Below the pieces are notes generated by a model, which had not been told where the DNA came from, ran no database searches, and was given only the letters and a program-made list of their open reading frames with translations. Source: Candidatus Abyssobacteria bacterium SURF_5 (GTDB taxonomy: Bacteria > Abyssobacteria > SURF-5). From it: a DNA stretch of 30,722 nt. The DNA lies in the NCBI GenBank assembly GCA_003598085.1, contig QZKU01000025.1, positions 1 through 30,722 of the forward strand, written 5' to 3'. Each line of letters opens with the position of its first letter. Position 1 is the first letter of the stretch. Below are positions 10,825 through 30,258 of this stretch, in pieces. Made by a program: the position numbers and the translations under genes.

Positions 10825-11751
10825 GTGCCGATTCGCATACAACATCTGAGAACCATTTTCTGGGCCGTCGATCTGACATTGACGGCTGTCGTCGTATTTT
10901 TTTTGGTAAGAGGAGCCCAATTCTTGTTTGCAGCCCCGATTTCCGAACCGGCTCCGCTTGCCCTTCCACAGTCGAACCAGCCGGAAATGGAATTTTCAAA
11001 AATCAAATCATACGAACAATACGCCGCCCTGCGAAAAAGCAACCTCTTTGGAGCACTGTCCTCTTCAAACGTGAGCGTCAAGAAGGTCGTTGAGGAGCGC
11101 CTGCCGGAAACGACGCTCGAGCTCGAGCTGCTCGGGTGTGTTGCCGCGGCAACCCCGCAATCAAGCTTTGCCATAATCCGGGACAAGAAAGGTCGCGTCG
11201 AGAACACATACGGCGTCGGCGACTCCATCATGAACGATGCCCGGCTTGAGGAAGTGCGTGAAAATGAAGTAGTTATCGCTCGAGCCGGCCGGCGCGAAGT
11301 GCTGGCGATGTCGTTCTCGGACAAAGAGGGGGGGAGGCCGGGACCGAATCTGTTTGGAGCGTCCCGACCGCAATTTCCCTCTGGTCTTGAATCGGCCTCT
11401 TCAGATGTCCCCATCCGGGTAGTGAATGAAAACCTTCGATATGTGAACCGCGCAAAGATGCTGGAGACCATTGGCAGCAACATCGGGCAGCTTGCCGGTC
11501 AGGTGCACACTTCGCCCAATGTGGTGGATAACCAGCCGGCGGGAATGAAGATCGATCAGGTTGGCTCCGACCCGCTTCTCGGTCAATCGGGTCTGCAGCC
11601 GGGCGACATTGTGAAAAGCGTAAATGGGATACGGGTAAACTCAGTCGATGACCTTATGGGTCAGAGCGAGCGGCTTCAGAGCGCGCCCGAGATTCGCGTG
11701 GTTGTCGAGCGTGACGGCCGGCATCGAACGCTTGTGTACAAGATCCGCTGA
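10825..11751 (+). CDS. gspC: type II secretion system protein GspC
   Basis: The 308-residue inner-membrane clamp protein couples the inner-membrane platform to the secretin. A short cytoplasmic N terminus is followed by one membrane helix (about 13-37), a proline-rich linker, an HR domain (about 65-165) whose GCVAAATPQSSFAIIRD and YGVGDSI segments are typical, and a C-terminal PDZ domain (about 235-308) with SGLQPGDIVKSVNGI. The domain order and length fit GspC well. The start is GTG at 10825 with GGGGGG upstream. It is the first gene of the operon and lies 49 bp ahead of gspD, its direct partner through the HR-N0 contact. Confidence 0.93.
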   Translation: MPIRIQHLRTIFWAVDLTLTAVVVFFLVRGAQFLFAAPISEPAPLALPQSNQPEMEFSKIKSYEQYAALRKSNLFGALSSSNVSVKKVVEERLPETTLELELLGCVAAATPQSSFAIIRDKKGRVENTYGVGDSIMNDARLEEVRENEVVIARAGRREVLAMSFSDKEGGRPGPNLFGASRPQFPSGLESASSDVPIRVVNENLRYVNRAKMLETIGSNIGQLAGQVHTSPNVVDNQPAGMKIDQVGSDPLLGQSGLQPGDIVKSVNGIRVNSVDDLMGQSERLQSAPEIRVVVERDGRHRTLVYKIR

Positions 11752-11800
11752 CACATTTTGTTTCAGCCGGACAAGCAGTCTCTAAAGAGGAAACCAACGA

Positions 11801-13903
11801 ATGGGAAAACGCTATCTTGCTGTATTAACAGCGATCGTTGTGGGATATTCCGCCCTTCTTCAAACAGGGACTTTCGCACAACCGCCCCAAGCGCCTCCGT
11901 CGCCCGCCACACGAGAAACGAATAATCAGATCTCCATCAATTTCGATAACGCTTCCATCCTCGAAGTCATCGACGTGATGAGCAGGGTCACAGGCGAGAA
12001 CTTTATCATCGATCCTGCGGTGAAGGGGACGGTAACGGTCATCGCGCCGAAACGAGTGGAAAGAGACGAGGCGTTCGGCGTATTTCTGTCAATCCTCGAA
12101 ATGAACGGATTTTCGCTTGTGCGCATCGGAAACATTTACAAGGTGGTCCCCAGCCGGACCGCCACTCAGAAAAGCATCCCCGTCCACTCGGGTCGAGAGT
12201 CCAGGGACGTATCCGAAGTGGATAAGGTTATCACCCAGCTAATCCCAATAAAGTATTCGGATGCGCAAGCGATCGTGAGCGTGATTACTCCGCTCATTTC
12301 CCGCGACGCCAATATTACTGCTTACCCAAATACGAATACCATTATCATTACGGATACAGCCGCCAACATCAAGCGCCTCATACAGATCATTGAAGAGGTC
12401 GATGTCCCCGGATTCGAGCAGACCATTACGATCCTCCCTCTCATGAATGCCCAGGCGGACGTGCTGACGCAGGAGATATTGCAGGCGCTCGAAGCCGCTC
12501 CCGCCGGCATGGCCGGAGCGCCTGGCGCAGTTACGGCTCCGCGCACGCGCCGGCGGATTCCGGCGCAACAGGTAGTGGCTGCCACCGCCTCGCAAATCAA
12601 GATCATTCCGGACCTGAGAACGAACTCGTTAATAGTTGTCGCCAATGAATTTGACACCGAGCAAGTGCGCTTCCTTGTGCGCGAGCTCGATAAGCCGACG
12701 CCGATCGAGGCGAACAACATTCACGTCTACCGCCTGAAGAATGCCTTGGCCGAAGACGTCGCCGCAGTGCTTACCAATTTGGCCGGGCAAACAGCGCCGG
12801 CCGCACCCGGCGGCGCGCCGGGCGCGACTGCGGTAACCGGAATCCGCACGTTCTACAAGGAAGTCTCCATCGTTGCGGATAAGACGACCAACTCCCTCAT
12901 CATAACCGCTTCACCGCAGGATTACGCCGTGATAGCGGCCGTTATCGATGAACTCGATATTTTGCGCCCTCAGGTGCTTGTGGAGACACTGATTGCGGAG
13001 GTCAGCCTGGATTTCACGCGCGACCTCGGCATCCGATGGCTGGTTGCGAGTCCGGACGACGAACACGTCACGTTCGGAAGCGTTGGAGAGTTGTCCAACG
13101 CCGATTCGCTCGGCGCGAGCATAGCGGGGGCGTTGGCGGGCGACACTCTCGTTCTGCCGACGCAGCCGGCCGGAATCAATATCGGTTATCTGAATATCGA
13201 CGAGGACTTCTTGCGCGCATTTATTGAGGCGAACGCATCCCAGAGCAACAACGATTTTAATGTTCTCTCGGCGCCGCATATCTTGACACTGGACAATCAG
13301 AAAGCAACCATAAACGTTTCCCAGAGCGTTCCTTTTATCACTCAGCGGGTAAGCGACGTAGTCTCGGCCGGCGCATCGGCGGTAAACGAAGCTTTCGAGT
13401 ATCGCGACGTTGGGATCATCCTCGAAATTACGCCGCATATAAGTCCGGATCGCATGGTGCGTCTCGAGATCACGCAGGAAGTGAACGATGCGGTTCTGCA
13501 GGAGGTATCCTCGTCCACCGGAGAAGCGCTGACCGAGTTGAAGAGGGAGGCGAATACCACCGTCCTGGTCAAAGACCGAAACACACTCGTTCTTGGGGGT
13601 CTGATGCAGGACGATGATAGTGTTACGGTCAGCAAAGTTCCTTTCTTAGGAGATATTCCCTTTCTCGGATGGCTGTTCAAGAGCACCAGCGTTCAGCAAA
13701 GAAAGATGAACCTGCTGATCTTCATTACGCCCAGCATCGTAACCAGCGTTGCCGAGGCCGCCGAGCTCACGCTCGAGAGAAGGATGCAGGCGACCGACCT
13801 GTTGCAGGAGAAGCTTGAAGCCTGTCCGACGTTCCAGGACGGCGCCACGCTGGGCGAAAGTGCAATCTTTACCGGTCCCCTCGAGGAGTCGGGGCCGAAA
13901 TGA
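11801..13903 (+). CDS. gspD: type II secretion outer-membrane secretin GspD
   Basis: The 700-residue protein forms the outer-membrane channel of type II secretion. A signal peptide (about 1-26, ending TFAQ) is followed by the N0 domain (about 45-120, SINFDNASILEVIDVMSR), then the N1-N3 ring-forming repeats, each with the RLIQIIEEVD-type signature, then the secretin barrel domain (about 400-660). The barrel carries VPF at 510-512 and the TTVLVKDRNTLVLGGLM signature starting at 586. Two Ala/Gly/Pro-rich insertions (about 228-250 and 328-345) interrupt N-domain loops. The C terminus is short, without an obvious pilotin-binding S domain. The ATG follows AAAGAGGA. The call is secure. Confidence 0.96.
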   Translation: MGKRYLAVLTAIVVGYSALLQTGTFAQPPQAPPSPATRETNNQISINFDNASILEVIDVMSRVTGENFIIDPAVKGTVTVIAPKRVERDEAFGVFLSILEMNGFSLVRIGNIYKVVPSRTATQKSIPVHSGRESRDVSEVDKVITQLIPIKYSDAQAIVSVITPLISRDANITAYPNTNTIIITDTAANIKRLIQIIEEVDVPGFEQTITILPLMNAQADVLTQEILQALEAAPAGMAGAPGAVTAPRTRRRIPAQQVVAATASQIKIIPDLRTNSLIVVANEFDTEQVRFLVRELDKPTPIEANNIHVYRLKNALAEDVAAVLTNLAGQTAPAAPGGAPGATAVTGIRTFYKEVSIVADKTTNSLIITASPQDYAVIAAVIDELDILRPQVLVETLIAEVSLDFTRDLGIRWLVASPDDEHVTFGSVGELSNADSLGASIAGALAGDTLVLPTQPAGINIGYLNIDEDFLRAFIEANASQSNNDFNVLSAPHILTLDNQKATINVSQSVPFITQRVSDVVSAGASAVNEAFEYRDVGIILEITPHISPDRMVRLEITQEVNDAVLQEVSSSTGEALTELKREANTTVLVKDRNTLVLGGLMQDDDSVTVSKVPFLGDIPFLGWLFKSTSVQQRKMNLLIFITPSIVTSVAEAAELTLERRMQATDLLQEKLEACPTFQDGATLGESAIFTGPLEESGPK

Positions 13904-13919
13904 CAACCGCAGCATCCAA

Positions 13920-13947
13920 GCCCTGCGCATCGATGGATATGCAGGGC
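13920..13947 (+). other. hairpin in the gspD-gspE gap
   Basis: The 7-bp stem GCCCTGC (13920-13926) faces GCAGGGC (13941-13947) with a 14-nt loop, located 17 nt after the gspD stop. A second short stem, CAAGA facing TCTTG, follows. No U tract comes after either. This 104-bp gap is the largest inside the gspC-M run, so the hairpin could tune expression between the secretin and the inner-membrane machinery. Confidence 0.3.
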
Positions 13948-14007
13948 GCAAGAACCTGTCTTGAAACGCGCCCATATGTTGGCGCCTTCGCGTGAGGCTG
14001 ATTTAAG

Positions 14008-15726
14008 ATGACTACCACTGCCGCTACAAAAACCATCGGACGTTTTCTCGTTCAGAACGGAGCCCTTTCCCGTGACCAGCTTGCCGAGGTCGCGCAACTG
14101 CAGGAGGAAAAGAATATTCCTCTTTATGATGCCGTCCTCGAAAAGGGATACCTGTCAGAGGAAGAGTATCTGCAGGCTGTCGGGGAACTGCTTGATATCC
14201 CTTACCGCAGCAAGATCGACGTGCAGGTCAATCCGAACATTCTCTCGAAGGTACCACTCTCTTTCATAAAGGAGAACAAGGTGGTGCCGATCTGTGAAGA
14301 GAACGGGGAATGTCTGGTGGCGGTGCACGACCCGTTCAATTCCGCTCCGGTGGACGACCTGAAGCTCTTGCTCGGGATGCGGACCACGATGATGATCTGC
14401 CCTTCCCTTGAAATCGAGCGGATCATCAATCATTATTTCGATTTGCAGAACCATTCGGCGGCTCAGGTGATCATGGATATTGAAGAAGAGGAAATGGGGC
14501 TTCTGACCGCCGAGCCGTTCGAGGAGCGGCGCGACCTGCTCGATCTGGCAAATGAAGCGCCGATCATAAAACTGGTGAACGTTATCATTTCGCAGGCGTC
14601 CAAAGAACGGGCGAGCGACATCCATATCGAGCCGTACGAGAAGGACCTGCGCGTTCGCTACAGGATTGACGGTGTCCTGTACCCGATCCTCAGCCCTCCT
14701 CGCTCCTATCACGCCGCCATTGTTTCGCGCATCAAGATCATGGCCAATCTGAATATTGCCGAGCGGCGTCTTCCGCAGGATGGCCGCATCAAGATACGGC
14801 TGAGCGGGCGCGAGATGGACATTCGCGTCTCGATTGTGCCGACCGCTTACGGCGAGCGCGTGGTGATGCGTTTGCTGGATAAGGGAACGTACCTGCTCAC
14901 CCTCGAGGAGCTGGGGTACAGCACGGAGGATCTGAGCCAGTACGCGCGGCTGCTCGAATGTTCGCACGGCATCATCCTGACGACCGGTCCCACCGGCAGC
15001 GGCAAGACGACGACGCAATATGCGGCCTTGAATCGGCTGAACTCAATGGAAAAAAACATCATTACCGTCGAAGACCCGATCGAATACATGATGGAAGGCA
15101 TCGCACAGATACAGGTCAAGCCGAAAATCGACCTGACCTTCGCGAACGGGCTGCGCTCGATCCTGCGGCAGGATCCGGACATCATTCTGGTGGGCGAGAT
15201 TCGGGATGTGGAAACGGCCGAGATGGCCATCCAGGCCTCGCTTACGGGCCATCTCGTTTTCAGCACATTGCATACCAACGATGCCGCGGGCGCAATCACG
15301 CGCTTGCTGAACATGGGAATCGAGCCGTTCCTCGTTTCCTCTTCGGTCATTGCGGTGCTCGCGCAGCGCCTGGTGCGCACGATTTGCCCGAGCTGTAAGA
15401 CGCCCTATCAGCCGGACGATCTGGAACTGGAGAACATCGGAATCAAGAGGGAGCGCCTTCACGACGGATTCTTGTGGCGCGGCGGCGGATGCGCCAACTG
15501 CGTGGGCAGAGGCTATCGCGGGCGCACCGGCATCTTCGAATTGCTTCTGGTGCGCGAGAACATCCAGAGCCTCATTCTCGAGAACGTGGACTCGAATACG
15601 ATCAAGCGACAGGCGATCCTCAAGAATGCGATGACCACTCTTCGCGAGGACGGGGCGCGAAAGGCGATCGCGGGCATCACCACTATTGAGGAAGTCCTTC
15701 GAATCACCCGGGAAGACATTGTATAA
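14008..15726 (+). CDS. gspE: type II secretion ATPase GspE (first of three paralogues)
   Basis: The 572-residue cytoplasmic hexameric ATPase powers pseudopilus assembly. An N-terminal T2SSE/MshEN-like domain (about 1-150) is followed by the N2 and catalytic domains. Walker A is GPTGSGKT with Lys333, the Asp box includes ASDIHIEP, Walker B is DIILVGEIRD and the His box is STLHTND. The zinc-binding tetracysteine is intact (Cys460, Cys463, Cys495, Cys498). The N-terminal motifs are too degenerate to predict c-di-GMP binding. Its position between gspD and gspF marks it as the cognate ATPase of this secretion system. The ATG at 14008 has only a modest ribosome-binding site (TGAGG). Confidence 0.95.
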   Translation: MTTTAATKTIGRFLVQNGALSRDQLAEVAQLQEEKNIPLYDAVLEKGYLSEEEYLQAVGELLDIPYRSKIDVQVNPNILSKVPLSFIKENKVVPICEENGECLVAVHDPFNSAPVDDLKLLLGMRTTMMICPSLEIERIINHYFDLQNHSAAQVIMDIEEEEMGLLTAEPFEERRDLLDLANEAPIIKLVNVIISQASKERASDIHIEPYEKDLRVRYRIDGVLYPILSPPRSYHAAIVSRIKIMANLNIAERRLPQDGRIKIRLSGREMDIRVSIVPTAYGERVVMRLLDKGTYLLTLEELGYSTEDLSQYARLLECSHGIILTTGPTGSGKTTTQYAALNRLNSMEKNIITVEDPIEYMMEGIAQIQVKPKIDLTFANGLRSILRQDPDIILVGEIRDVETAEMAIQASLTGHLVFSTLHTNDAAGAITRLLNMGIEPFLVSSSVIAVLAQRLVRTICPSCKTPYQPDDLELENIGIKRERLHDGFLWRGGGCANCVGRGYRGRTGIFELLLVRENIQSLILENVDSNTIKRQAILKNAMTTLREDGARKAIAGITTIEEVLRITREDIV

Positions 15727-15753
15727 CGCTGCCATCTGCAAGAACAAGAGACT

Positions 15754-16977
15754 ATGCCGGTTTTTGAATACGTAGCCATCACCGCCCAGAGCAAGAAGGT
15801 AAAGGGCGTGCTTGACGCCGAGACGGCGCAGGCGGCCCGCGCAAAACTTCGCGAGATGGAACTGCTGCCGGTGGAGATCGGCGAAACTGCGTCGCAAACG
15901 GCGAAGCCGGCGCGCGAAATCAACCTGGGCGAATTCTTCACCCGTGTGAAAGCACCTGATATCGCTTTGATGACCCGGCAATTGGCCGTACTACTGCAGG
16001 CGGGAATGCCCTTGGTCGACGCGCTCAACGCCGTGCTCGACCAGGTGGATAATAAGGCGCTGAAGAAGATAGTTTACCAGATAAAGGAGACCATCAGCGA
16101 AGGCGCCGCCTTGTCGGCCGCTCTGGGCCAGCACCGGCGTTACTTTCCGCAGTTGTACGTGAACATGGTAAAAGCCGGCGAATCGTCGGGCGCGCTCGAA
16201 GTGGTCCTTTTCCGGCTGGCCGAATACATGGAGAAGCAACTGACGCTCCGCCGCAAAATCATATCGGCCATGCTGTATCCCGCGCTGATGACAGTGGTCG
16301 GATTTGGCGTCCTGTTCTTTCTGCTGACGTACATCATTCCCACAATCACCAAGATCTTTTTCCAGATCAACCGCGCGCTTCCGACGCCGACGGTCATCCT
16401 CATTAACATCTCCGCCTTCATGCGCTCGTACTGGTTGGTCATGGTCGTGCTGGCGGCGGTGGCGGTCATTGTGCTCAACCGCTACCTGAAAACCGAGACG
16501 GGGGGAACGGCGTGGGATAAGCTGAAGCTCGCGCTTCCCATTTTCGGCAAACTGAACCGCAAGCTGGCAGTCGCCCGGTTTGCGCGCACGCTGGGAACGC
16601 TTACCCAGAGCGGCGTGAATCTGATCGATTCCATGGAGATAGTGAAAAGCATCGTTAACAATCGAATCATCGCGAAAGCGATCGGGCAAGCGCAGGAAAA
16701 TGTTCGCAAGGGGGAGGACCTTGCGGCCTCACTGCGCAGAAGCGCCGTCTTTCCGCCGGTCGTCATCCACATGGTTGCGCTCGGCGAGCGGAGCGGCCAG
16801 CTCGAGGAGATGCTGATGAAAGTGGCCGATACGTACGACGACGAAGTCGATACCACGCTGTTGGGACTGGTTTCGCTTCTCGAGCCGCTGATGATTGTAA
16901 TTATGGCAACCATTGTCGGTTTTATCGTTCTGGCTATCCTGCTGCCGATATTCGATATTAATCAGATCGTCCATTAA
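15754..16977 (+). CDS. gspF: type II secretion platform protein GspF
   Basis: The 407-residue polytopic inner-membrane protein contacts GspE and GspL. An N-terminal beta segment (MPVFEYVAITAQSKKVKGVL) leads into two T2SSF helical domains (about 68-190 and 268-395), each with the KAGESSGALEVVL or ALGERSGQLEEML signature. Membrane helices lie at about 170-192, 222-242 and 370-397. Length and layout are standard for GspF/PilC. It lies 27 nt after gspE and is the only platform protein in the window, although three ATPases are encoded nearby. Confidence 0.95.
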   Translation: MPVFEYVAITAQSKKVKGVLDAETAQAARAKLREMELLPVEIGETASQTAKPAREINLGEFFTRVKAPDIALMTRQLAVLLQAGMPLVDALNAVLDQVDNKALKKIVYQIKETISEGAALSAALGQHRRYFPQLYVNMVKAGESSGALEVVLFRLAEYMEKQLTLRRKIISAMLYPALMTVVGFGVLFFLLTYIIPTITKIFFQINRALPTPTVILINISAFMRSYWLVMVVLAAVAVIVLNRYLKTETGGTAWDKLKLALPIFGKLNRKLAVARFARTLGTLTQSGVNLIDSMEIVKSIVNNRIIAKAIGQAQENVRKGEDLAASLRRSAVFPPVVIHMVALGERSGQLEEMLMKVADTYDDEVDTTLLGLVSLLEPLMIVIMATIVGFIVLAILLPIFDINQIVH

Positions 16978-16989
16978 GGAGAGGATTCA

Positions 16990-17442
16990 ATGGATACGAA
17001 AAGGAAAAAGCGGGGGGACCGCGGCTTCACCCTGATCGAGTTGATGGTCGTGATCGTTATTATCGGCATCCTCGCCGCCTATATTGCGCCAAAGCTCATT
17101 AACAGAACAGAGGATGCGAAGATAACCGCCGCAAAAGCGCAAATCAGAAGTTTTGAGACGGGGCTGAAACTGTTTCGGTTGGACTGTGGATTTTATCCGT
17201 CGACCGAGCAAGGTCTGCAGGCGCTGGTAAGCCAGCCCTCGACCGGCCGAATTCCAGAGCGGTATAAACAGGGAGGATACCTGGAGACGTCGGCAATACC
17301 GAATGATCCGTGGGGAAATGAATACATCTATGAGTCGCCCGGCCAGCACGGTTTCGACTATGAGATCCGTTCCCTCGGAGCCGACGGCGTGGATGGCGGC
17401 GAAAACGAGAGCCGCGATATCGAGAGCTGGAACATTGAATAA
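16990..17442 (+). CDS. gspG: major pseudopilin GspG
   Basis: The 150-residue precursor has a 12-residue positively charged leader and a prepilin peptidase site G/FTLIE, giving a mature protein starting at Phe13 with Glu17 as the conserved fifth residue. A 20-residue hydrophobic helix follows. GspG-specific features are DCGFYPSTEQGLQAL (65-79), NDPWGNEY (105-112) and the C-terminal calcium-binding loop LGADGVDGGENESRD (129-143). The GspG family usually has a non-Cys residue where Cys66 lies. It is 12 nt after gspF with an AGGAGAG ribosome-binding site. The processing peptidase (GspO/PilD) is not in the window. Confidence 0.96.
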   Translation: MDTKRKKRGDRGFTLIELMVVIVIIGILAAYIAPKLINRTEDAKITAAKAQIRSFETGLKLFRLDCGFYPSTEQGLQALVSQPSTGRIPERYKQGGYLETSAIPNDPWGNEYIYESPGQHGFDYEIRSLGADGVDGGENESRDIESWNIE

Positions 17443-18031
17443 CCGCGCGGGGAAAAAGGGATTCACCCTCATCGAGCTGGTGGTGGTCATCGCCATTATC
17501 AGCATCATGGCGGTTATTGTTCTGCCGAGGCTGGACCCCTTTGTTCCGAGCCGCCGCCTGAAAGGCGCGGCGCGGACGCTCTCAGGCACAATAACCCTCG
17601 CGTACGGCGAGTCGGTTGCAAAGAATAAAAGGTACCGACTCTACCTCGATCCCATGGAGGAAACATACTGGGTTGTGCAAGTAAAAGAGACGGAGAAAGA
17701 GGATTCGGGTGGCGCGATCGGGCTGACTCTCGGGACTCAGTTCGAACTGCTGCACTACGAGGAATCGGGGACGGAGGATGAAGTTGCCGCCCCTTCCGAG
17801 CCGCTGTTCGCCCCCCAGAAATTGCCGCAGGGCGTTCATTTCTCCTCGATGAGCGTTGGAGACGATACAGCCCTTGCCTCCTCAAAACCGCGTTATATAG
17901 AGTTTACTCCATTGGGCGTCGCGAGTCCCGCGACGGTGACGCTGGTAAATGAGGACGGCGACACGCTCTCTGTGCAGTACGACGGCATAACGGGCATGCC
18001 CACCCTTGTCGCCTCGACCGACGAAATCTGA
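17435..18031 (+). CDS. gspH: minor pseudopilin GspH
   Basis: The start is assigned to TTG at 17435, overlapping the end of gspG by 8 bp. This gives a 9-residue leader (MNNRAGKKG) directly before the cleavage site and FTLIE, like the leaders of gspI and gspJ. GAGAG lies eight bases upstream. The frame is open further upstream to 17303, but that region overlaps gspG heavily. The 198-residue product has the pseudopilin helix (10-30) followed by a beta-rich globular domain with an acidic loop (about 90-125). GspH is one of the minor pseudopilins near the pseudopilus tip. Confidence 0.88.
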   Translation: MNNRAGKKGFTLIELVVVIAIISIMAVIVLPRLDPFVPSRRLKGAARTLSGTITLAYGESVAKNKRYRLYLDPMEETYWVVQVKETEKEDSGGAIGLTLGTQFELLHYEESGTEDEVAAPSEPLFAPQKLPQGVHFSSMSVGDDTALASSKPRYIEFTPLGVASPATVTLVNEDGDTLSVQYDGITGMPTLVASTDEI

Positions 18032-18399
18032 TGAATAGAAGCCAGTCACAGAGTGGATTCACCTTGCTGGAAGTGATGGTTTCCGTCGCTATTATTGCGG
18101 CTGTTCTCGTCACGCTTCTCGGGACGCACCTGATGAGCCTCAACCTCGCTCACAAAAACCAGGAGCAGACGCTGGAGGCGACGCTCGCGAGGCAAAAAAT
18201 GGAGGAGGCCTTCACGACTCCGTATGATTCGCTTAACAATGATTCGGGCGATTTCGGTCCCGAATATCCGGAGCTCAACTGGGAGATTTTCGTCGAGGAA
18301 ACGAAGGTGGAAAATCTGAAAAACTTGAAAATAACGGTTTCCTCAGCGGAACGCACATTCGAGCTGCATACGGCCTTCTCGAAGGAGGCTGTCGAGTGA
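18031..18399 (+). CDS. gspI: minor pseudopilin GspI
   Basis: The 122-residue precursor has a leader MNRSQSQSG, a cleavage site before FTLLEVMVSVAII and a hydrophobic helix (10-30). The ARQKMEEAF segment (about 48-56) is typical of GspI, and the length matches the family. GspI nucleates the tip complex with GspJ and GspK. Its ATG shares one base with the gspH stop, and its end overlaps the gspJ start by 4 bp, so translation is coupled on both sides. No independent ribosome-binding site is visible. Confidence 0.92.
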   Translation: MNRSQSQSGFTLLEVMVSVAIIAAVLVTLLGTHLMSLNLAHKNQEQTLEATLARQKMEEAFTTPYDSLNNDSGDFGPEYPELNWEIFVEETKVENLKNLKITVSSAERTFELHTAFSKEAVE

Positions 18400-19268
18400 G
18401 AACCGGAACCCGAAACAGCGGATTCACGCTGATGGAAGTCCTTCTTGCGGTCACGATTCTGGCAATGATCTTCGGCATCGTCTTCGGCACGTTCTTCTAC
18501 ACCATCACCAATGCCGAAGAGCAGCAGGAACGCGCCGTAATTTATCACAAAGCCAACTTCCTCCTCAACGACATCACTCAAAACACGGCGTCCGCCTACG
18601 TTCCATTCGGCGGCCGGCTTGGCTCGGAGACATCTGCGGAAACGGGAGAAACGGTGGAAACGGAGGAGACAGAGCAGTCGATCTTTATGGGGACTCCGTC
18701 CGAGAACGAGGACACCCCCGTGGATTCGCTCGAGCTGTTCACGACGAATTCCCGTTTTTCAGCCCGTATGCTGGCCGGGGAGATCGCGCATGTCACATAT
18801 GGGCCGGCGGAACAGGATGTGGAGGATCTGCCTTATGCCGTCGACGAAAACAACCCCTATGCTCTTCAATGCACGGTGGCGCCCCTGCTGACGGAAACCG
18901 AGGATGGCGGAGGCGTCTTCCAATGGACCATGAACGTTCATTCGCTGAGGTTTGAGTATTTTGATGGAACTGAATGGCTGCCGGAATGGGTTTATGAAGA
19001 TGAGACCGCACTGCCTGCAGCCGTCAAGGTTACCCTCGAGATCGCCGATTCAAACGGCGAGCTTTTCCCGTTCTCCACAATCGCCCGCATTCCGGTGAAT
19101 TCCGTGCTTGAAGAGCCCGAGACCGCCTTCGAGGAACTCGAGGACGAGGAACAGGAAGAGCAGGAGGAAGATATTCTGGAAGACCAGGAAGAAGAGGAGA
19201 TCAATCCGCCTGCCGACGAAGGAGCGGAGGGCGACCAGGGGTCGTCGACACTCGAGACGCAGGAATGA
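18396..19268 (+). CDS. gspJ: minor pseudopilin GspJ with a long acidic C-terminal tail
   Basis: The start is GTG at 18396 with an excellent AAGGAGG seven bases upstream, inside the end of gspI. The 290-residue precursor has a 9-residue leader, a cleavage site before FTLMEVLLAVTIL, a membrane helix and a globular domain with RFEYFDGTEWLPEW (about 188-201), which is a GspJ feature. Residues 239-290 form a low-complexity tail in which 26 of 52 residues are Asp or Glu. GspJ homologues are usually around 190-240 residues, so this tail is an extension. It would lie in the periplasm at the pseudopilus tip. Confidence 0.9.
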   Translation: MRTGTRNSGFTLMEVLLAVTILAMIFGIVFGTFFYTITNAEEQQERAVIYHKANFLLNDITQNTASAYVPFGGRLGSETSAETGETVETEETEQSIFMGTPSENEDTPVDSLELFTTNSRFSARMLAGEIAHVTYGPAEQDVEDLPYAVDENNPYALQCTVAPLLTETEDGGGVFQWTMNVHSLRFEYFDGTEWLPEWVYEDETALPAAVKVTLEIADSNGELFPFSTIARIPVNSVLEEPETAFEELEDEEQEEQEEDILEDQEEEEINPPADEGAEGDQGSSTLETQE

Positions 19269-19328
19269 TGAGCGATATCTTTTGACGGTATGAGCCGGCA
19301 TCACCGAGGCCGACCGGGTTGACAGCAG

Positions 19329-20372
19329 ATGCGCAAATACTTCATAATGAATAATAAAAATTACCCGCACATGTACGCGCTCGGCGAACGTGGAATGGCT
19401 TTGTTGCTGACGCTGCTGGTCACGATCATCCTCACCGTTGTGGTACTGGAATTCAACTATCTGATCCGCGTGTATGCTACTCTGTCCGGCAATTTGGTGG
19501 ATGATCTTCAGGCGCAAGCGGCGGCGCGCGGAGGAATCGAAACGGCAAAAGCTCTTCTTCTGAACGATCTGAAGAACGACATGGACAAGAGCATCCGCGT
19601 TGATACGCTGGAGGAAGAGTGGGCGGAAGAAATCGATTTCACAACACCGGCTTCATCTGCGAAAACGAAAATTACCGATGAAATGTCCAAGCTGAATTTG
19701 AACCGCCTCATCAAAGGCACTCTCTCGGAAACAGCCATCGAAAGCAAGAACATCGAAATGGTTGAGAACATGAAGTACCTGTTCGAGCTTCTTGATCTCG
19801 ATCCGGGCCTGGTGGACTGCATCGTCGATTGGATTGACGAAAATGATCAGGAGGAGCCGCTGGGCGCGGAAGATTCTTATTATCAGTCGCTCGATCCGCC
19901 GCGATATTGCAAGAACGGCCCGCTGGACAGCGTCGAGGAACTCTTGCTGATCAAGGGGTTTGACGAAGAGATTCTTTTTGGCGATGATGAAAATCCGGGT
20001 CTCGCCGCATACGTGACGGTATTTGGGGATCCGAAGGGCCTGGTGAACATAAATACGGCCGACGAGGTGGTTTTATCCGCCGTTCTCAAAAGCGAAGCCG
20101 CAGGGTCGTCAGCTTTCGACTCGCGCCAGGATGATCCGTTTGAGACCGCCGCCGATCTGACGGCACGGCTGCCCGATATTGATCCTGCCAGGAAATTTGC
20201 GACCGGCAGCTCATATTTCCTCATCACTGCCACCGGCACAGTTCCCGCCGAGGGAGACCCGGTGCGGACGTTGAAAATCAAAACGCTCCTGAAGCGCTCG
20301 ATGCCGCAGGGGCTGGAAACAAGTGAAAACTATTTGCAGTTGGAAACTGCGTATTGGAAAGTGGAAAGATGA
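19329..20372 (+). CDS. gspK: tip pseudopilin GspK
   Basis: The 347-residue large minor pseudopilin caps the pseudopilus. The prepilin site is ERG/MALLLTLL with cleavage after Gly22. The fifth mature residue is Leu rather than Glu, as expected for GspK. A large alpha domain (about 60-290) contains DPGLVDCIVDWIDEND and NINTADEVVLSAVL, the helix-hairpin-helix-like region seen in GspK, and aspartate-rich segments that could bind calcium. The leader is long if the ATG at 19329 is used; ATGs at 19347 and 19371 are alternatives and none has a strong ribosome-binding site. It is separated from gspJ by 60 bp and overlaps gspL by 4 bp. Confidence 0.92.
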   Translation: MRKYFIMNNKNYPHMYALGERGMALLLTLLVTIILTVVVLEFNYLIRVYATLSGNLVDDLQAQAAARGGIETAKALLLNDLKNDMDKSIRVDTLEEEWAEEIDFTTPASSAKTKITDEMSKLNLNRLIKGTLSETAIESKNIEMVENMKYLFELLDLDPGLVDCIVDWIDENDQEEPLGAEDSYYQSLDPPRYCKNGPLDSVEELLLIKGFDEEILFGDDENPGLAAYVTVFGDPKGLVNINTADEVVLSAVLKSEAAGSSAFDSRQDDPFETAADLTARLPDIDPARKFATGSSYFLITATGTVPAEGDPVRTLKIKTLLKRSMPQGLETSENYLQLETAYWKVER

Positions 20373-21862
20373 TGTTCGAAACCAGAAGCATCGGCATAGA
20401 CATCAGGCCCGACTCGATAAAGATGGCTGTCGCCTCCCGGCACGGCGGGCGCACGAAAATCCTTGAACTCATAGAAAAGCAGGTTCCCGAGGTCACGGAT
20501 GAAGAGGGCAAAAAGCTTTTTGGAACCGTGATTCGGGAGGCCTTTGCCGAAAACGAATTGAACGGGGATACGTGCGTCGTTTCGCTGCCGGCGGCCTTTA
20601 CAATCAACAGGATACTGATCAGTCCGATCGCGGATGAGGGAAAAATCAGGCAAACGCTGAAATTCCAGATGGAGCCGCAGATACCATATCCCGTCGAGCA
20701 GGTGATTACGGATTTCATCCCCATCCGAAAGACGGGCGAAGGGACCGAAGTTCTCGCGATGGCGGTCACAAAAGAGATTTTGGCCGAACGCCTGAATATT
20801 ATGAAGAGCGCCCAGATCGACCCTCAAATCGTCACGGTCGACATTCTGGCGCTGAGCGACTTTTATCTGAACCCGTTCGACTTCTCGGATGACAAGCTCA
20901 CCGTCCTGCTGCGCCTGGGGTACGAGAACACGTTTCTCGGATTTTTCAGGGGACAGCGGCTTCTCGGTTTTCGCACGCTGGAAGGAATTTCGTTGTCCGA
21001 TGAACAGGCCGAGCAGAAAATGCTCAAGGAAATACAGCGCTCCCTGTTTACGTATCCGGCCGCGGAGGCGGCGAACAGCGAAATCGGAGTCGTCTGTGTC
21101 AGCGGAGCAAACGCGGAAAACTTCAGGAGTCTGTTGCAGAAGAAGCTGCCGGATATCCCCGTAAAAGTCGTTCTTTTCAATGAGAATTCCGTCGCCGAGA
21201 TTCCCCCGTATCTGCTGGCCGGCTCAGAGGAATTTCAGCTTGCGATCGCCCTTGCGCACGCTGGACTGGGAACCGGCGGCAACAAAATCAATTTCCGGCG
21301 CGAAGAATACGCGCCGGCGTCCCTCCTTTCGCGCGTAAAGCCGAACCTGCTGTTCAGCACGGGAATCCTCATTATCGCCCTGGTCGCGTGGCTGATAAAC
21401 GTGTGGACGTCCAACAGCTATAACGAGCGCCAACTGGAATATCTCAATCAGGAGATGGTGAAGACGTTTGCAGATACGCTGCCAGATGTTAAATCACCGG
21501 AAAGCGTGCAGCGGAAAATACGGGAGGAGCAGGAAAATTTCAGGTTGCTGAGAAATTACTCGTCCCGCTATGTGGCGCCGCTGGATGTACTTTCCGAGCT
21601 AACGGTAAACATTGCGGAAGGACAGGCGGTCACGTTAAACGACCTTTCGATTTCGGACAACACGTTGCGGATGACCGGCGAAGTCGGCTCATTCGACGAC
21701 ATCAACATATTTAAGAGCAAACTCGATAATTCTCCCCTGCTTGCCGAGGTGAAGATCGAGTCGGCCACAAAAGCGGAGAAGTCGAACAAGATCACGTTCC
21801 GCATCAGGGCGGATATCCAGAGGCGCGCCGCCGCGGCCCAATTACAAGGGGGTGCGGTATGA
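20369..21862 (+). CDS. gspL: type II secretion protein GspL (PilM-PilN-like)
   Basis: This is a 497-residue bitopic inner-membrane protein. The cytoplasmic part (about 1-310) is an actin-like ASKHA domain close to PilM: SIGIDIRPDSIKMAV at the start, VVSLPAAFTINRIL, then KFQMEPQIPYPVEQV. A membrane helix lies near 326-347, followed by a coiled-coil segment and a ferredoxin-like periplasmic domain (about 400-480), which corresponds to PilN. GspL recruits GspE to the membrane and pairs with GspM. The ATG at 20369 overlaps the gspK stop (ATGA); an in-frame TTG at 20354 is less likely. It ends with a 4-bp overlap with gspM. Confidence 0.9.
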   Translation: MMFETRSIGIDIRPDSIKMAVASRHGGRTKILELIEKQVPEVTDEEGKKLFGTVIREAFAENELNGDTCVVSLPAAFTINRILISPIADEGKIRQTLKFQMEPQIPYPVEQVITDFIPIRKTGEGTEVLAMAVTKEILAERLNIMKSAQIDPQIVTVDILALSDFYLNPFDFSDDKLTVLLRLGYENTFLGFFRGQRLLGFRTLEGISLSDEQAEQKMLKEIQRSLFTYPAAEAANSEIGVVCVSGANAENFRSLLQKKLPDIPVKVVLFNENSVAEIPPYLLAGSEEFQLAIALAHAGLGTGGNKINFRREEYAPASLLSRVKPNLLFSTGILIIALVAWLINVWTSNSYNERQLEYLNQEMVKTFADTLPDVKSPESVQRKIREEQENFRLLRNYSSRYVAPLDVLSELTVNIAEGQAVTLNDLSISDNTLRMTGEVGSFDDINIFKSKLDNSPLLAEVKIESATKAEKSNKITFRIRADIQRRAAAAQLQGGAV

Positions 21863-22383
21863 TCGAGTTGAAGAAGAGGGAAAAGAAGATAATCGCGGCT
21901 TGCCTCGCTATCGCCGCCATCATCATCATTCAGGTAGCGGTCATCTCCCCCGCTCTGGCGAAGCGAAGGAAGCTTGATGAGGGTATCAAGCAGGCTCGCG
22001 TGCAGAGTGCGGAGCTCAAGGTGCTCAAACAGCAGTACGATCAGATACTGAAGGAGAAGGAAAAGATAAACAGGAGGGTCCAGAACCGGCCGCGCAATTT
22101 TACGCTTTTTTCGTTTCTCGACCAGACGGCCAGCCGGCTGAACCTGAAGAATAATCTGGCAGCGATGAAGCCGTCGCGGCAAACGCTCAGCAAGAACTTC
22201 GTCGAGGACATGGTCGAGGTGAGGCTGGAGGGCATTTCCCTCGAGAATCTGGTGGCTTACCTGTACGAGATCGAACGCACCGGCGCCGCCGTCGTGATCT
22301 CCAGCATTCGAATTCAGCCGGAATCGCGCTTGGGCGGCGGATTGAACGTTTCCATGATGGTAACTTCCCTCGGGCCTGCGTAA
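21859..22383 (+). CDS. gspM: type II secretion protein GspM (PilO-like)
   Basis: The 174-residue protein has a short basic cytoplasmic N terminus, one membrane helix (about 10-34), a coiled coil (about 36-75) and a small ferredoxin-like periplasmic domain with EVRLEGISLENLVAYLYEIE (about 118-137). This layout matches GspM and PilO, which stabilise GspL/PilN. The ATG overlaps the gspL stop by 4 bp and follows GGGGG. It is the last gene of the gspC-M run; a separate promoter follows. Confidence 0.88.
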   Translation: MIELKKREKKIIAACLAIAAIIIIQVAVISPALAKRRKLDEGIKQARVQSAELKVLKQQYDQILKEKEKINRRVQNRPRNFTLFSFLDQTASRLNLKNNLAAMKPSRQTLSKNFVEDMVEVRLEGISLENLVAYLYEIERTGAAVVISSIRIQPESRLGGGLNVSMMVTSLGPA

Positions 22384-22424
22384 TAAATGCCCCGCCTCAA
22401 CAGGAAATTAAGAGGGTTGATTCC

Positions 22425-22453
22425 TTGACATCGTTTTCGGGCTGCGCTATAAT
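22425..22453 (+). promoter_or_regulatory. perfect-consensus sigma-70 promoter
   Basis: TTGACA (22425-22430) and TATAAT (22448-22453) are separated by exactly 17 bp, matching all 12 consensus positions. Transcription would begin near 22460, followed by AAAGGGGG and a GTG start at 22480. It sits in the 96-bp gap after gspM and should express the two downstream ATPases strongly and independently of the gspC promoter. Confidence 0.88.
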
Positions 22454-22479
22454 TTTATCACGATAAAGGGGGTGAACCG

Positions 22480-24273
22480 GTGGCTGTTGTTGAAAGCAGT
22501 AAGTCACTGGGCCAGATTCTGTTGGCCCAAGGCGCCATCACGCAGGAGCAACTCCAGGACGCCCTGAAGCGCCAGCAGACCAGGGCCAGCGGCAAGCGGC
22601 TTGGAGATGTCCTCGTCAGTTTCGGTTACGTAACTCCTCAACATCTGGCCGAAGCCCTCGCCACTCAGTTGAATCTCCCTCTGGTCAACCTTTCGAACCT
22701 CGAAATCTCGCAGGACCTGATCGACTTCGTCCAATCTTCCATCGCAAAAATCTACCAGGTCATCCCGGTCAGGAAGGAAGGCAGAACGCTTTATGTCGCG
22801 ATGGCCGACCCGACCAATCTGGGTGTGGTTGACAACCTGCGCCTGCTGCTCGAGTGCGATATCAGCCCCGTTATCGCCACACAGGAAACCATCAAAGAAG
22901 CGATTCGCAAATATTATGGTCTCGAAGAGGTGACCGTCGACACGATGCTTTCACAGGTCAGCGGCGACAGCCTCAGCACGGTCAGCAGTCTCAGCGTCAG
23001 CAGCCTCAGCGTAGAAAGCATCGAATTCGACGGCTCTCTCGTGGAGGGCGGCGACGACGAAGAGAGCGACGAGGGGCCCGTAATCAAACTGGTCACGCTG
23101 CTTATTCTCGAAGCGTTCCGGCACCGCGCGAGCGACATCCACATCGAGCCGTTCGAGCGGGAACTCAAAGTGAGGTACCGAATTGACGGCGTGCTTCACG
23201 AGGTGAACCCGCCGCCCAAGGCGCTGCAGAACGCCATCCTTTCGCGTTTGAAAATCATGGCCGGCATGGACATCTCCGAAAAAAGGATACCGCAGGACGG
23301 CCGCATCAAGCTGCAGCTCATGGGAAAGGACATCGACCTTCGCGCCTCGGCGCTGCCCGCCATTTACGGCGAGAGTTTCGTGCTCCGAATTCTCGACAAG
23401 AGCAGCCTCGCATTGGACTTGCGCGATCTCGGATATGCGTCTGACACGCTCAGAAGCTGGCAGGGTCTGCTGCACATCCCGACAGGAATCGTGCTGGTAA
23501 CCGGCCCGACCGGTTCGGGTAAGACAACGACGCTCTACGCTTCGCTCAATACGATTAACACGCCCGAGCGCAAGATCATCACCATTGAGAACCCGGTCGA
23601 GTACGTGCTTTCCGGAATCAATCAGGTGCAGATCGAAGAGGAAATCGGGCTTACCTTTGCCGCAGGTCTGCGTTCCATCCTGCGCCAATCGCCGGACATT
23701 GTGATGGTCGGTGAGATTCGCGACGGCGAGACTGCGGAAATCGCTATCAGGGCGTCGCTCACCGGTCACCTGGTTTTCAGCACGCTGCATACCAACGATT
23801 CCGCGGGCGCGCTGAACCGCTTGATCGATATGGGCATCAAACCCTTCCTGGTTTCATCGGCCGTTCAGGCGATTTCGGCCCAGCGACTTGTCCGCAAGAT
23901 CTGCAAGAGTTGCAAGACCGAAGAGCACCCGAGCGAAGAGAAGCTGCGTCACGTGGGCCTCGACCCCCAGGAAGTGAGCGATATCACCTTCTATAAGGGC
24001 GCCGGCTGTGAAAGCTGCAATCGGACCGGCTACCACGGCCGGACCACGGTCCTTGAGCTCCTCATTATGAATGAAAAGATCCGCGATATGGTCCTCGCGC
24101 ACGCTCCCACCGTCGATTTGAAGAACCAGGCGCGCCGGATGGGAATGAGGACGCTTCGTGACGACGCCTGGCTGAAAGTATTCGCCGGAGTCACTACGAT
24201 TGACGAAGCTGTGATGATCACGCAGCAGGACGACCTGCTGCCCGGCTTGAAACTGGTGAAGAGCGTATCGTAA
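22480..24273 (+). CDS. GspE/PilB-family assembly ATPase (second paralogue)
   Basis: The 597-residue hexameric secretion or pilus ATPase begins at GTG with AAAGGGGG upstream. Its MshEN-type N-terminal domain has two LG-x2-L-type motif units (KSLGQILLAQG and KRLGDVLVSFG). Only the second keeps the Arg seen in c-di-GMP-binding relatives. A serine-rich, then acidic linker (about 154-202) leads to the catalytic domains: RASDIHIEP, Walker A GPTGSGKT with Lys348, Walker B DIVMVGEIRD, STLHTND and an intact tetracysteine (Cys475, Cys478, Cys510, Cys513). All catalytic features are present, so it should be active. It could be a PilB for a type IV pilus whose other genes are elsewhere, or an alternative motor for the same secretion system. 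It is 29 nt ahead of a third paralogue. Confidence 0.93.
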   Translation: MAVVESSKSLGQILLAQGAITQEQLQDALKRQQTRASGKRLGDVLVSFGYVTPQHLAEALATQLNLPLVNLSNLEISQDLIDFVQSSIAKIYQVIPVRKEGRTLYVAMADPTNLGVVDNLRLLLECDISPVIATQETIKEAIRKYYGLEEVTVDTMLSQVSGDSLSTVSSLSVSSLSVESIEFDGSLVEGGDDEESDEGPVIKLVTLLILEAFRHRASDIHIEPFERELKVRYRIDGVLHEVNPPPKALQNAILSRLKIMAGMDISEKRIPQDGRIKLQLMGKDIDLRASALPAIYGESFVLRILDKSSLALDLRDLGYASDTLRSWQGLLHIPTGIVLVTGPTGSGKTTTLYASLNTINTPERKIITIENPVEYVLSGINQVQIEEEIGLTFAAGLRSILRQSPDIVMVGEIRDGETAEIAIRASLTGHLVFSTLHTNDSAGALNRLIDMGIKPFLVSSAVQAISAQRLVRKICKSCKTEEHPSEEKLRHVGLDPQEVSDITFYKGAGCESCNRTGYHGRTTVLELLIMNEKIRDMVLAHAPTVDLKNQARRMGMRTLRDDAWLKVFAGVTTIDEAVMITQQDDLLPGLKLVKSVS

Positions 24274-24302
24274 ACCCAGCGAAAACAGGAGAATGATCAG
24301 CA

Positions 24303-26027
24303 TTGACATTGGGTACTCGAAACCTCGGTGAGATCCTGCTGGAAAACGGCGTTATCACCGCCGCCCAGCTTGAAGAAGCCCTCGAAAAACAGCGAGCTAA
24401 CCGGGAGTTCCTTGGGCGCACCCTCGTCAGCCTGGGCTATGCGAAAGAACAGGATATCGTTAACGCCCTCGGGATTCAACAAGGCATGGAGCAGGTAGCC
24501 CTCGGTCAGGTTGCTATCGACCCGGAAGTGCTCCACCTGGTGACGCCCGATATCGCGCAGTTCTACAACATCATTCCCATACGAAAAACCGATAACGTGC
24601 TGACGATCGCAATGGCCGACCCGCTCGCCATCAACACGATCGACGATCTGAAAGTCATCATCGGCTGCGAGATCGAGGGAGCGGTAAGCAGCCAGAGCGA
24701 AATCGCTGCCGCCATTGAAAGACATTACGGCTATCAGAAGGAGTCGGCGGCGGCGCTCATCGATGAACTGTTCGCGGACGTCGAGAAAGTAATGGAGGAC
24801 CCCAACAAGGTCACGCGCGAGAAAATCGCGGACGCCAATAACCTCATTGCGCTTGCGCACGAGGCGCCTGTCATCAAGCTGATCAACCTGGTTATCCTTC
24901 AGGCGATTCAAAGTCGCGCATCGGACCTGCACTTCGAGCCGTTTGAAGAAGATTACCAGGTGCGCCAACGCGTTGACGGTGTGTTATATAACATTGCGAC
25001 GCCCCCGAAACATCTGGCGCTGGCTGTAAGCTCGCGCCTGAAAGTCATGGCAAACCTCGACATCGCAGAGCGGCGGCTTCCCCAGGACGGTCGTATCCAA
25101 TTATCGCTTGGCGGAAAAGATATCGACCTCCGCATTTCGTTCCTGCCGACGATGTTCGGAGAGAGCATCGTTATCCGTATCCTGGACAAGAGCGCCGTCA
25201 TGATCTCGCTCGACGGACTCGGCCTCGAAAAAGATCAGCATGATATCATCCAGGACCTCATTCAACGGCCAAACGGAATCATCCTCGTTACCGGCCCAAC
25301 CGGGTCCGGAAAAACGACCACCCTTTACGCCTGTCTGAATGAACTGAACGATCCCCAGTGGAAGATCATCACAACGGAAGACCCGGTCGAATACCAGGTG
25401 AATGGGATTGTCCAGGTCAATATCAATGAAAAAGTCGGACTCACTTTCGCCAAGTGCCTGCGATCCATTCTGCGCCAGGACCCGGATATCTGCATGGTCG
25501 GCGAAATCCGCGACGTGGAAACGGCCGCGCTCGCCATCGAAGCGTCGCTGACCGGACACCTTGTCTTCAGCACGCTTCACACGAATGATGCGCCAAGCAC
25601 AGTCACCCGTATGATCGACATGGACGTTGAACCGTTCCTATTGACATCCACCATTGAGGCTGTTGTCGCCCAGCGGCTCGTCCGAAAACTCTGCATGTTC
25701 TGCCGCGAAGCATACGATCCGCCCGATGAGGAACTTCGGACGGTCGGGTTGACCCGCGATCAGATCAAGGACACAAAAATCTACCGCTCTCGCGGGTGTA
25801 AAGAGTGCTCACACGTCGGCTACAAGGGCAGAACCGGCATCTACGAGCTCATGACGCTCAATGACGAGGTTCGCGACCTGATCCTCAAACGCAGCGCCAC
25901 CGGCGAAATCCGCGACGCCGCTGTCCGGAACGGCATGCACACCCTCCGCGAAGCCGGAATAAGGAAAATACTCGCCGGCATAACAACAATTGAAGAAGTA
26001 TTAGGCGAAACCATGGGGTACGGTTAA
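24303..26027 (+). CDS. GspE/PilB-family assembly ATPase (third paralogue)
   Basis: The 574-residue ATPase starts at TTG 24303 with AGGAG eleven bases upstream. An ATG at 24293 is nearer to that site but out of frame and only one base from it. The MshEN-like N terminus (RNLGEILLENG and EFLGRTLVSLG) lacks Arg in both motif units. Catalytic features are complete: RASDLHFEP, Walker A GPTGSGKT with Lys337, Walker B DICMVGEIRD, STLHTND, and tetracysteine Cys464, Cys467, Cys499, Cys502. The C terminus ends ITTIEEVLGETMGYG, the normal family end. It is co-transcribed with the second paralogue. No pilT-like retraction motor or pilC follows. Family assignment is certain; the partner system is not. Confidence 0.93.
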   Translation: MTLGTRNLGEILLENGVITAAQLEEALEKQRANREFLGRTLVSLGYAKEQDIVNALGIQQGMEQVALGQVAIDPEVLHLVTPDIAQFYNIIPIRKTDNVLTIAMADPLAINTIDDLKVIIGCEIEGAVSSQSEIAAAIERHYGYQKESAAALIDELFADVEKVMEDPNKVTREKIADANNLIALAHEAPVIKLINLVILQAIQSRASDLHFEPFEEDYQVRQRVDGVLYNIATPPKHLALAVSSRLKVMANLDIAERRLPQDGRIQLSLGGKDIDLRISFLPTMFGESIVIRILDKSAVMISLDGLGLEKDQHDIIQDLIQRPNGIILVTGPTGSGKTTTLYACLNELNDPQWKIITTEDPVEYQVNGIVQVNINEKVGLTFAKCLRSILRQDPDICMVGEIRDVETAALAIEASLTGHLVFSTLHTNDAPSTVTRMIDMDVEPFLLTSTIEAVVAQRLVRKLCMFCREAYDPPDEELRTVGLTRDQIKDTKIYRSRGCKECSHVGYKGRTGIYELMTLNDEVRDLILKRSATGEIRDAAVRNGMHTLREAGIRKILAGITTIEEVLGETMGYG

Positions 26028-26329: not shown

Positions 26330-26451
26330 ATTCCGACACTGTGGATAACCTTGTTGATTAAACCGGAGACCTCTGTTGAGAAATAAAACTAACTTTTTGA
26401 CCTCAAACAAGTTGTGGATGATATTTTCGATGTTGATAATTTTGTGGAAAA
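26248..26451. promoter_or_regulatory. cluster of DnaA-box-like 9-mers
   Basis: One perfect DnaA box, TGTGGATAA (complement of TTATCCACA), is at 26340-26348. Three sites with one mismatch flank it: TTATCCGCA at 26248-26256, TGTGGATGA at 26413-26421 and TGTGGAAAA at 26443-26451. The interval 26376-26455 is AT-rich. Such clusters occur at replication origins and in DnaA-regulated promoters. No dnaA, dnaN or gyr gene is nearby, so an origin is only a possibility. Confidence 0.3.
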
Positions 26452-28773: not shown

Positions 28774-30258
28774 ATGTATTCTTTCGAACCGGTCATCATA
28801 ATAGTCGCAACGCCGGATGAAAAAGTAAAAGATATTGCCGCCTCTGCGGCGCCTGAACGGTCTGAGGTTCTCTATCCCTCTAACAAAGCTTCATTGTACG
28901 GGCTTCTGATGGATTTGCCGGTCGATGTGCTCCTGATCGAGGAGAATTTCGACAGATGCCCGTTGCTTGACCACCTCCCGATCGTCAAGAAGATGAGCAA
29001 GAACCTTTCGATCGTCGCTGTTCTGGAGGAGAGGGCTTCAGAAGAGATGAAGAAAGTCATTTCGCCCCACGTGTTCGATTTGCTGATGAAGCCGCTTCAG
29101 CAGGATCACGTGCGGCACAAGCTGAAAAATGCCGTCGAGCATGTTCAGCTTCTTCGGGAAGTCAGCTTATTGGAGCAAAGCAAGCAGGCTGCCCGGCCTC
29201 CGTGGCCGGGGGTTCATGCCGTTTCGGAGGAGAGGGAAAACGACGTGTCGGGCCCGTTGCGCCAATTTTTTTCTGCATGCCTCCACCTTCAGGACATTAA
29301 TAAGCTGCTCGATCTCATGGTCGGCGCGTTCTCTGAATATTTCGTCTGCGCAAAGGCGGCGGCCGTCCTTCTTGATGAAGAGACGGGTAAGCTGCAGATC
29401 AGGGCGTCGCGCGGATTCGACAACCAGATTCTTCAATCTATTGAGCTGAATTTTCAGTCGGGCATCTATTTCTGGCTGCGAAAAAACAATCGCATTCTTT
29501 CAGCCCGGGAACTGTCGGCGGCGGTTAACGCAGAGAGCATGGTAGGCGTCGATAAGGAGATGAGGCTTCTGCAAGCTGAGATTGCGTCGCCGCTGTTGGG
29601 TCGGAAATATCCGGTCGGATTCGTAACGCTCGGCCAGAGGTTCAGCGGAGAGCCGTTCTCACCGAAAGAGGCGAAAAGCACATTCTTCCTTGCCAGGCAT
29701 GCGGGGGCGGCGATTGAAAATGCTTTTGTCCTGCAGGAGACAAGACAGCAGGCCGTTCACGATGAATTAACCCAACTCTACAACAGGCACTACTGGAAGA
29801 GAAGCCTCGAGGTCGAGATCGAACGCTCGAAGCGATACGATCGGCCGCTATCGGTTGCCATCTTCGATATCGATCACTTCAAGATCATCAACGACAAGTT
29901 CGGCCATCAGACAGGCGACGAGGTTCTCCGCAGTTTGGCGCGATACATGACCAAAACCTCGCGCCATACCGATGTCATCGGCCGGTACGGCGGCGAAGAA
30001 TTTATCGCGATCCTTCCGGAAACCACCGCCGAACTCGGCTTTTTCTACTGCGAGAGACTGCGCCAGGACGTCGAGCAAAGGCTCGGCGAACAGGAAAGCG
30101 ATGAGTGCATTCATCCCGGTCTCACGATCAGCGGCGGAATGACCACCTGCGACCGCAAAGAAGATACTTCCCAGCGCCTTATCGAGCGCGCCGACCAGGC
30201 GTTGTATGCCGCGAAACGCGAGGGCAGAAACAGAATCCACCAGCAGCTCCCGGCGTGA
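28774..30258 (+). CDS. diguanylate cyclase with pseudo-receiver, GAF and GGDEF domains
   Basis: The protein has 494 residues. Residues 1-125 form a receiver-like domain in which the phospho-acceptor position is Glu56 (DVLLIEEN) and the N-terminal acidic pair is missing, although Lys106 remains; it is probably not phosphorylated. A GAF domain (about 165-325) follows. The C-terminal GGDEF domain (about 330-490) has the active signature GGEEF (406-410), FDIDHFKIINDKFGH, and an inhibitory I-site RHTD (397-400) exactly five residues before GGEEF. It should make c-di-GMP from two GTP and be subject to product inhibition. There is no membrane segment, so it is cytosolic. It could supply c-di-GMP to the MshEN-bearing ATPases encoded upstream, which is inference. 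Confidence 0.94.
   Translation: MYSFEPVIIIVATPDEKVKDIAASAAPERSEVLYPSNKASLYGLLMDLPVDVLLIEENFDRCPLLDHLPIVKKMSKNLSIVAVLEERASEEMKKVISPHVFDLLMKPLQQDHVRHKLKNAVEHVQLLREVSLLEQSKQAARPPWPGVHAVSEERENDVSGPLRQFFSACLHLQDINKLLDLMVGAFSEYFVCAKAAAVLLDEETGKLQIRASRGFDNQILQSIELNFQSGIYFWLRKNNRILSARELSAAVNAESMVGVDKEMRLLQAEIASPLLGRKYPVGFVTLGQRFSGEPFSPKEAKSTFFLARHAGAAIENAFVLQETRQQAVHDELTQLYNRHYWKRSLEVEIERSKRYDRPLSVAIFDIDHFKIINDKFGHQTGDEVLRSLARYMTKTSRHTDVIGRYGGEEFIAILPETTAELGFFYCERLRQDVEQRLGEQESDECIHPGLTISGGMTTCDRKEDTSQRLIERADQALYAAKREGRNRIHQQLPA

Follow-up and report, generated by a model that had tools for sequence, protein, structure and literature searches.

The two ATPase genes that follow the type II secretion system (T2SS) operon in the window, by which we mean the whole stretch of 30,722 nucleotides analysed here, are likely to encode PilB1 and PilB2, the pair of extension motors belonging to a two-motor type IV pilus encoded elsewhere, with GspE alone driving the T2SS. 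We call these genes ATP2 and ATP3. The gspC–M operon before them is complete, spanning 10825-22383 according to open reading frames and profile or Pfam matches, and the features are as follows:

10768-10796: sigma-70-like promoter before gspC, 11/12 match
10825-11751, + strand: gspC (Pfam T2SSC, E=2e-24)
11801-13903, + strand: gspD, secretin (NCBIfam TIGR02517, 520 bits, cut-off 351)
14008-15726, + strand: gspE, T2SS motor, 572 aa (TIGR02533, 710 bits, cut-off 630, exactly 630.25)
15754-16977, + strand: gspF, T2SS platform (TIGR02120, 456 bits, cut-off 424)
16990-17442, + strand: gspG, major pseudopilin (position and homology to the GspG of family relatives)
17303-18031, + strand: gspH as the longest open reading frame; homologs in relatives have 195-198 aa, and the true start is probably near 17435
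18031-18399, + strand: gspI (prepilin-like N-terminus in translation; relatives have homologs in this position)
18396-19268, + strand: gspJ (Pfam T2SSJ)
19329-20372, + strand: gspK (NF037980, 168 bits, cut-off 130)
20354-21862, + strand: gspL, PilM-like and PilN-like (PilM_2, PilN and GspL_C matches; 53 bits against TIGR01709, under the cut-off of 65)
21859-22383, + strand: gspM (Pfam T2SSM)
22425-22453, + strand: sigma-70-like promoter of the motor pair, TTGACA-N17-TATAAT, 12/12 match
22480-24273, + strand: ATP2, pilB1-type extension ATPase, 597 aa (PilB1 clade; NF053729, 66 bits, cut-off 38)
24303-26027, + strand: ATP3, pilB2-type extension ATPase, 574 aa, TTG start (PilB2 clade; NF053729, 60 bits)

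An earlier, sequence-only reading had described three intact GspE/PilB-type ATPases, one within gspC–M and two in tandem after gspM, and the open reading frames bear this out. Motif inspection agrees with its statement that the catalytic motifs and the tetracysteine are kept: all three proteins have Walker A (GPTGSGKT), the Asp box (DIHIEP or DLHFEP), Walker B/GEIRD, the His box (TGHLVFSTLH) and a CxxC...CxxC pair. The N-terminal domains are, as it had noted, the most divergent parts, with 21–41% identity among the three proteins vs 54–55% in the ATPase core.

We placed the ATPases in two trees, one containing 147 ATPases that carried labels for their genomic context, the other 99 ATPases with Hydrogenedentota added; branch supports are SH-aLRT values from quick trees. 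The product of 14008-15726 groups with T2SS GspE (99–100), as sister of the Hydrogenedentota GspE (99), and with its TIGR02533 score above the cut-off it is, by score and clade, a true T2SS GspE. ATP2 falls in the PilB1 clade as sister of Hydrogenedentota PilB1 (99) and ATP3 in the PilB2 clade as sister of Hydrogenedentota PilB2 (99), both lineages being separate from classical PilB; judged by these placements, ATP2 and ATP3 belong to two ancient pilus-motor lineages. The phylogeny that the sequence-only reading had called for thus assigns its three ATPases to GspE, PilB1 and PilB2. AU tests rejected both a single clade of ATP2 and ATP3 (P = 3e-5) and a joint clade of GspE, ATP2 and ATP3 (P = 3e-85), so the window ATPases are not local duplicates, and the idea that gspE, or ATP2/ATP3, had recently duplicated in tandem was discarded. 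In the platform tree, the window GspF is the sister of Hydrogenedentota T2SS GspF (98), and all four gene trees set this genome beside Hydrogenedentota. Some profile scores count against the preferred reading: neither motor passes the curated cut-off for classical T4aP PilB (TIGR02538, 675.65), ATP2 with 654.5 and ATP3 with 667.9 being just under it and the PilB on contig C68 of the same genome scoring 706.7. ATP3, with 649 bits, also passes the GspE cut-off of 630.25, which ATP2 with 616 bits does not, yet it lies, as does ATP2, outside the GspE clade.

A cassette of the order pilB1–pilT–pilB2–pilC was seen in Planctomycetota, Verrucomicrobiota, Kiritimatiellota, UBP18 and Hydrogenedentota. 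In Hydrogenedentota, gspC–M is followed by pilB1, pilT, pilB2, pilC and pilin-like genes in one continuous stretch: at 14 loci, those with contigs long enough, pilB1 lies immediately 3' of gspM, and pilT–pilB2–pilC come next wherever the contig extends, while a few other loci carry the cassette without upstream gsp genes. Six Hydrogenedentota genomes have a long PilM ~17–20 kb beyond the cassette on the same contig, followed, where read, by a PilO-like gene and a TPR-secretin. No PilM was seen within 10 kb of the cassette in Planctomycetota and Verrucomicrobiota loci, and the link to PilM and the secretin therefore comes from Hydrogenedentota and the family relatives described below. The open-licence papers searched held no description of the cassette or of its linkage to a T2SS.

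In the window, neither pilT nor pilC stands beside the motors. The order gspC–M–ATP2–ATP3 is identical in G001 and G002, which together with this genome are the only three species, each of its own genus, representing the family. The two ATPases share 84–91% protein identity with their counterparts there, and dN/dS across the three genera is 0.03–0.05 for both, in keeping with the earlier view that the extra copies are not decaying. The gap between gspM and ATP2 measures 96 bases and contains the promoter of the pair, which is found at the same site with 12/12 matches in G002 and as TTGACT-N18-TATAAT (11/12) in G001. Because this conserved promoter-like site sits in the gap, the ATP2–ATP3 pair is probably a transcription unit of its own.

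The sequence-only reading had left two options, a pilus encoded elsewhere or a T2SS that swaps motors. Under the latter, the T2SS would alternate GspE, ATP2 and ATP3 on its single GspF, c-di-GMP choosing the motor; the adjacency to gspM, kept in three genera and in Hydrogenedentota, the PilM-like character of gspL and the differing state of the c-di-GMP motif in the N-termini would all suit this. However, the lineages of ATP2 and ATP3 are elsewhere accompanied by their own PilT and PilC, a cognate PilC survives in this genome, and the pair appears to be under a separate promoter. Extension ATPases of different systems are, moreover, generally incompatible and not interchanged (PMC11656802). 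This too speaks against a T2SS that swaps motors, a reading we regard as decidedly improbable. The old linkage to gspM, kept in two lineages, could still point to a functional tie to the T2SS, and it weighs against the preferred reading. If PilB1 and PilB2 formed a mixed or alternating motor shared by the adjacent T2SS and the dispersed pilus, with c-di-GMP shifting it between secretion and extension, this would explain why the pair retained its place behind gspM after the rest of the cassette had moved; we give such sharing very little credence.

A pilus encoded elsewhere, the option favoured by the motor lineages, leaves parts to be found in the rest of the genome. The earlier statement that a single GspF is present and that pilT, pilC and a prepilin peptidase are missing is true of the window and fails for the genome, which has 5 GspF/PilC platforms, 11 PilT-like ATPases and one prepilin peptidase, along with 8 long ATPases and three secretins. 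The genome search for pilC, pilM and pilT that it had proposed returned an orphan PilC on contig C115 and a PilM, with a secretin, on contig C107; a cassette-clade PilT was absent among the PilT-like ATPases searched, which speaks against the preferred reading. In the platform tree, the orphan PilC is the sister of the Hydrogenedentota cassette PilC (100). Its gene lies between serA and speB and has orthologs on C151 of G001 and C4 of G002, with 90% identity and a dN/dS of 0.02–0.03 across the three genera. A possible cognate motor for this PilC, an ATPase on the same contig (L057:12171-14084), was rejected, as it lies four genes away and groups elsewhere in the tree; in G002 the two are on different contigs. 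This ATPase, itself an orphan, combines MshEN with a double zinc ribbon at the C-terminus and is conserved in both G001 and G002.

A candidate second part of the pilus was found in the two sister genera, G001 and G002, where a PilM/PilO-like/secretin locus adjoins waaA; its Hydrogenedentota counterpart is the PilM and secretin region that shares a contig with the cassette. The PilM and secretin of this locus match the Amuc_1101- and Amuc_1098-type families of the Akkermansia pilus (NF042912, NF045709) best or strongly, with 279 and 124 bits in G001, although these scores are far below the equivalog cut-offs of 650 and 750. No ATPase was seen in the assembled part of the locus, whose contigs end at a giant GspK-like gene, and every long ATPase of G001 and G002 is accounted for away from it. 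The locus was not found in the assembly of the present genome, where the waaA site is a contig end: contig C121 begins within waaA, and the genes that come next match those downstream of waaA in G001, so the PilM/secretin locus has probably been lost here to an assembly gap. That it is seen only in two sister genera, its far side lying beyond the contig end, is a further point against the preferred reading. According to the sequence-only reading, motor swapping would fail if the extra ATPases grouped with PilB and a motorless pilus locus existed elsewhere. The lineages, the orphan PilC and the sister-genus locus largely give this picture and favour the pilus over swapping. They do not give it in full: this assembly breaks off at a contig end where the pilus locus would be and lacks it, in both sister genera the locus likewise reaches the end of its contig, and ATP2 and ATP3 score just under the curated PilB cut-off. 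The giant GspK/PilX-like proteins encoded at the pilus locus (L257:14761-19263, L261:2115-9713) have 1500–2500 aa; one has a lamin-tail-domain match, and the family assemblies break there.

The genome also encodes a classical T4aP on C68 (PilB/PilT/PilSR/PilC), and ATP2 and ATP3 might be extra extension motors of that pilus, assembled from C68 and C107. The presence of a classical T4aP with its own PilB and of PilM and a secretin on C107 would allow this, and there is a precedent in the competence pilus of Acinetobacter baylyi, which has two extension motors, PilB and TfpB (PMC8213720). As in that system, two phylogenetically distinct extension ATPases would serve one pilus, one of them away from pilC; unlike PilB and TfpB, the pair here is ancient, adjacent, co-conserved and next to a T2SS. 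With 473 and 464 bits against a TfpB cut-off of 850 (NF053534), identification of ATP2 or ATP3 as TfpB was rejected. The C68 PilB, moreover, groups with classical PilB, the C68 PilC lies apart from the dual-motor PilC clade, and C115 carries a PilC that is closer to the pair. Service in the classical T4aP is, on this evidence, unlikely. Upstream of the C68 pilB (L056:14899-16305) lies a gene for a 468-aa protein combining an MshEN domain with a DnaA-type AAA+ domain.

With the cassette pilT not found in the genome and the pilus locus missing from the assembly, the pair could also be a leftover that assembles no filament and has taken another role, for instance in c-di-GMP sensing or regulation. 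Such a fate fits poorly with catalytic motifs that are all intact, with the strong purifying selection seen for the orphan PilC as well as the two motors, and with a PilM/secretin locus intact in both sister genera, and we consider it the least probable of the readings.

The N-termini were compared with the MshEN c-di-GMP receptor model NF053729 at its cut-off of 38 bits and at 14 key residues. ATP2 and ATP3 exceed the cut-off and keep 13/14 and 11/14 of the residues, whereas GspE, with 32 bits and 6/14, falls short. The window GspE is altered at G40, L54, L58 and Q61, the positions whose changes led to the loss of c-di-GMP binding in XpsE (PMC5013675), and it belongs with T2SS motors such as EpsE and XpsE, unlike ATP2 and ATP3. 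Over the three genera, identity in the MshEN-N region is 88–93% in ATP2 and ATP3 vs 52–57% in GspE. ATP2 and ATP3 share the N-terminal double 24-residue motif with Vibrio cholerae MshE and Myxococcus xanthus PilB but have its Arg positions partly replaced, and c-di-GMP binding is predicted here. Through this predicted binding, both are probably c-di-GMP-responsive. The earlier suggestion that the N-termini would suit different signals accords with the pilus motors keeping the motif and GspE having lost it. A GGDEF-domain gene with a weak GAF match lies close to the pair, after polX (28774-30258); this diguanylate cyclase was rejected as a dedicated partner, as it is not conserved beside the pair in G001 and G002.

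Given the observed ancestry, linkage, conservation, promoter match and motif state, we propose that an ancestor shared with Hydrogenedentota carried pilB1–pilT–pilB2–pilC and pilin genes right after gspC–M, with pilM, a PilO-like gene and a secretin gene some distance beyond them, and that this locus was broken up in the family of the window. The two motor genes would have stayed behind gspM as a bicistron with a strong promoter of their own, pilC would have come to lie by itself, with serA and speB as its neighbours, and the PilM/secretin locus of Amuc_1101/Amuc_1098 similarity would have ended up near waaA. As to binding partners, both motors would probably work in trans with the orphan PilC (and the PilM/secretin locus) and respond to c-di-GMP; as to the division of labour, each may form its own hexamer or the two may take turns. 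GspE, having lost the motif, would drive the T2SS alone.

The reason why certain pili possess more than one extension ATPase is treated as an open question in a 2024 review, with Acinetobacter PilB/TfpB as the worked example (PMC11656802). In the present case, a single cassette has kept two extension-motor lineages next to each other in several phyla, and one family has its motors physically apart from their platform. Which partners the motors choose and how they divide the labour can therefore be tested directly, and the question of why one pilus keeps two different motors can be put to a clean system. The case also advises caution in reading function from gene neighbourhood, as motors adjacent to a T2SS are not thereby T2SS motors.

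Several further features were noted. After ATP3, DnaA boxes (TTATCCACA, TTTTCCACA and two variants) are clustered in the intergenic region at 26340-26451 of the window, possibly an origin or a dnaA control region; the window has no dnaA-like gene, whereas in G001 and G002 the corresponding site has a similar cluster immediately before one. A second tandem pair of GspE/PilB-type ATPases occurs on C76 (L058:364-4610), on C241 of G001 and on C25 of G002, without the N-terminal c-di-GMP motif and with one platform gene alongside. The PilT family is expanded, four of the eleven PilT-like genes being consecutive on C113 (L230, with L231 on C128 and L232 on C52).
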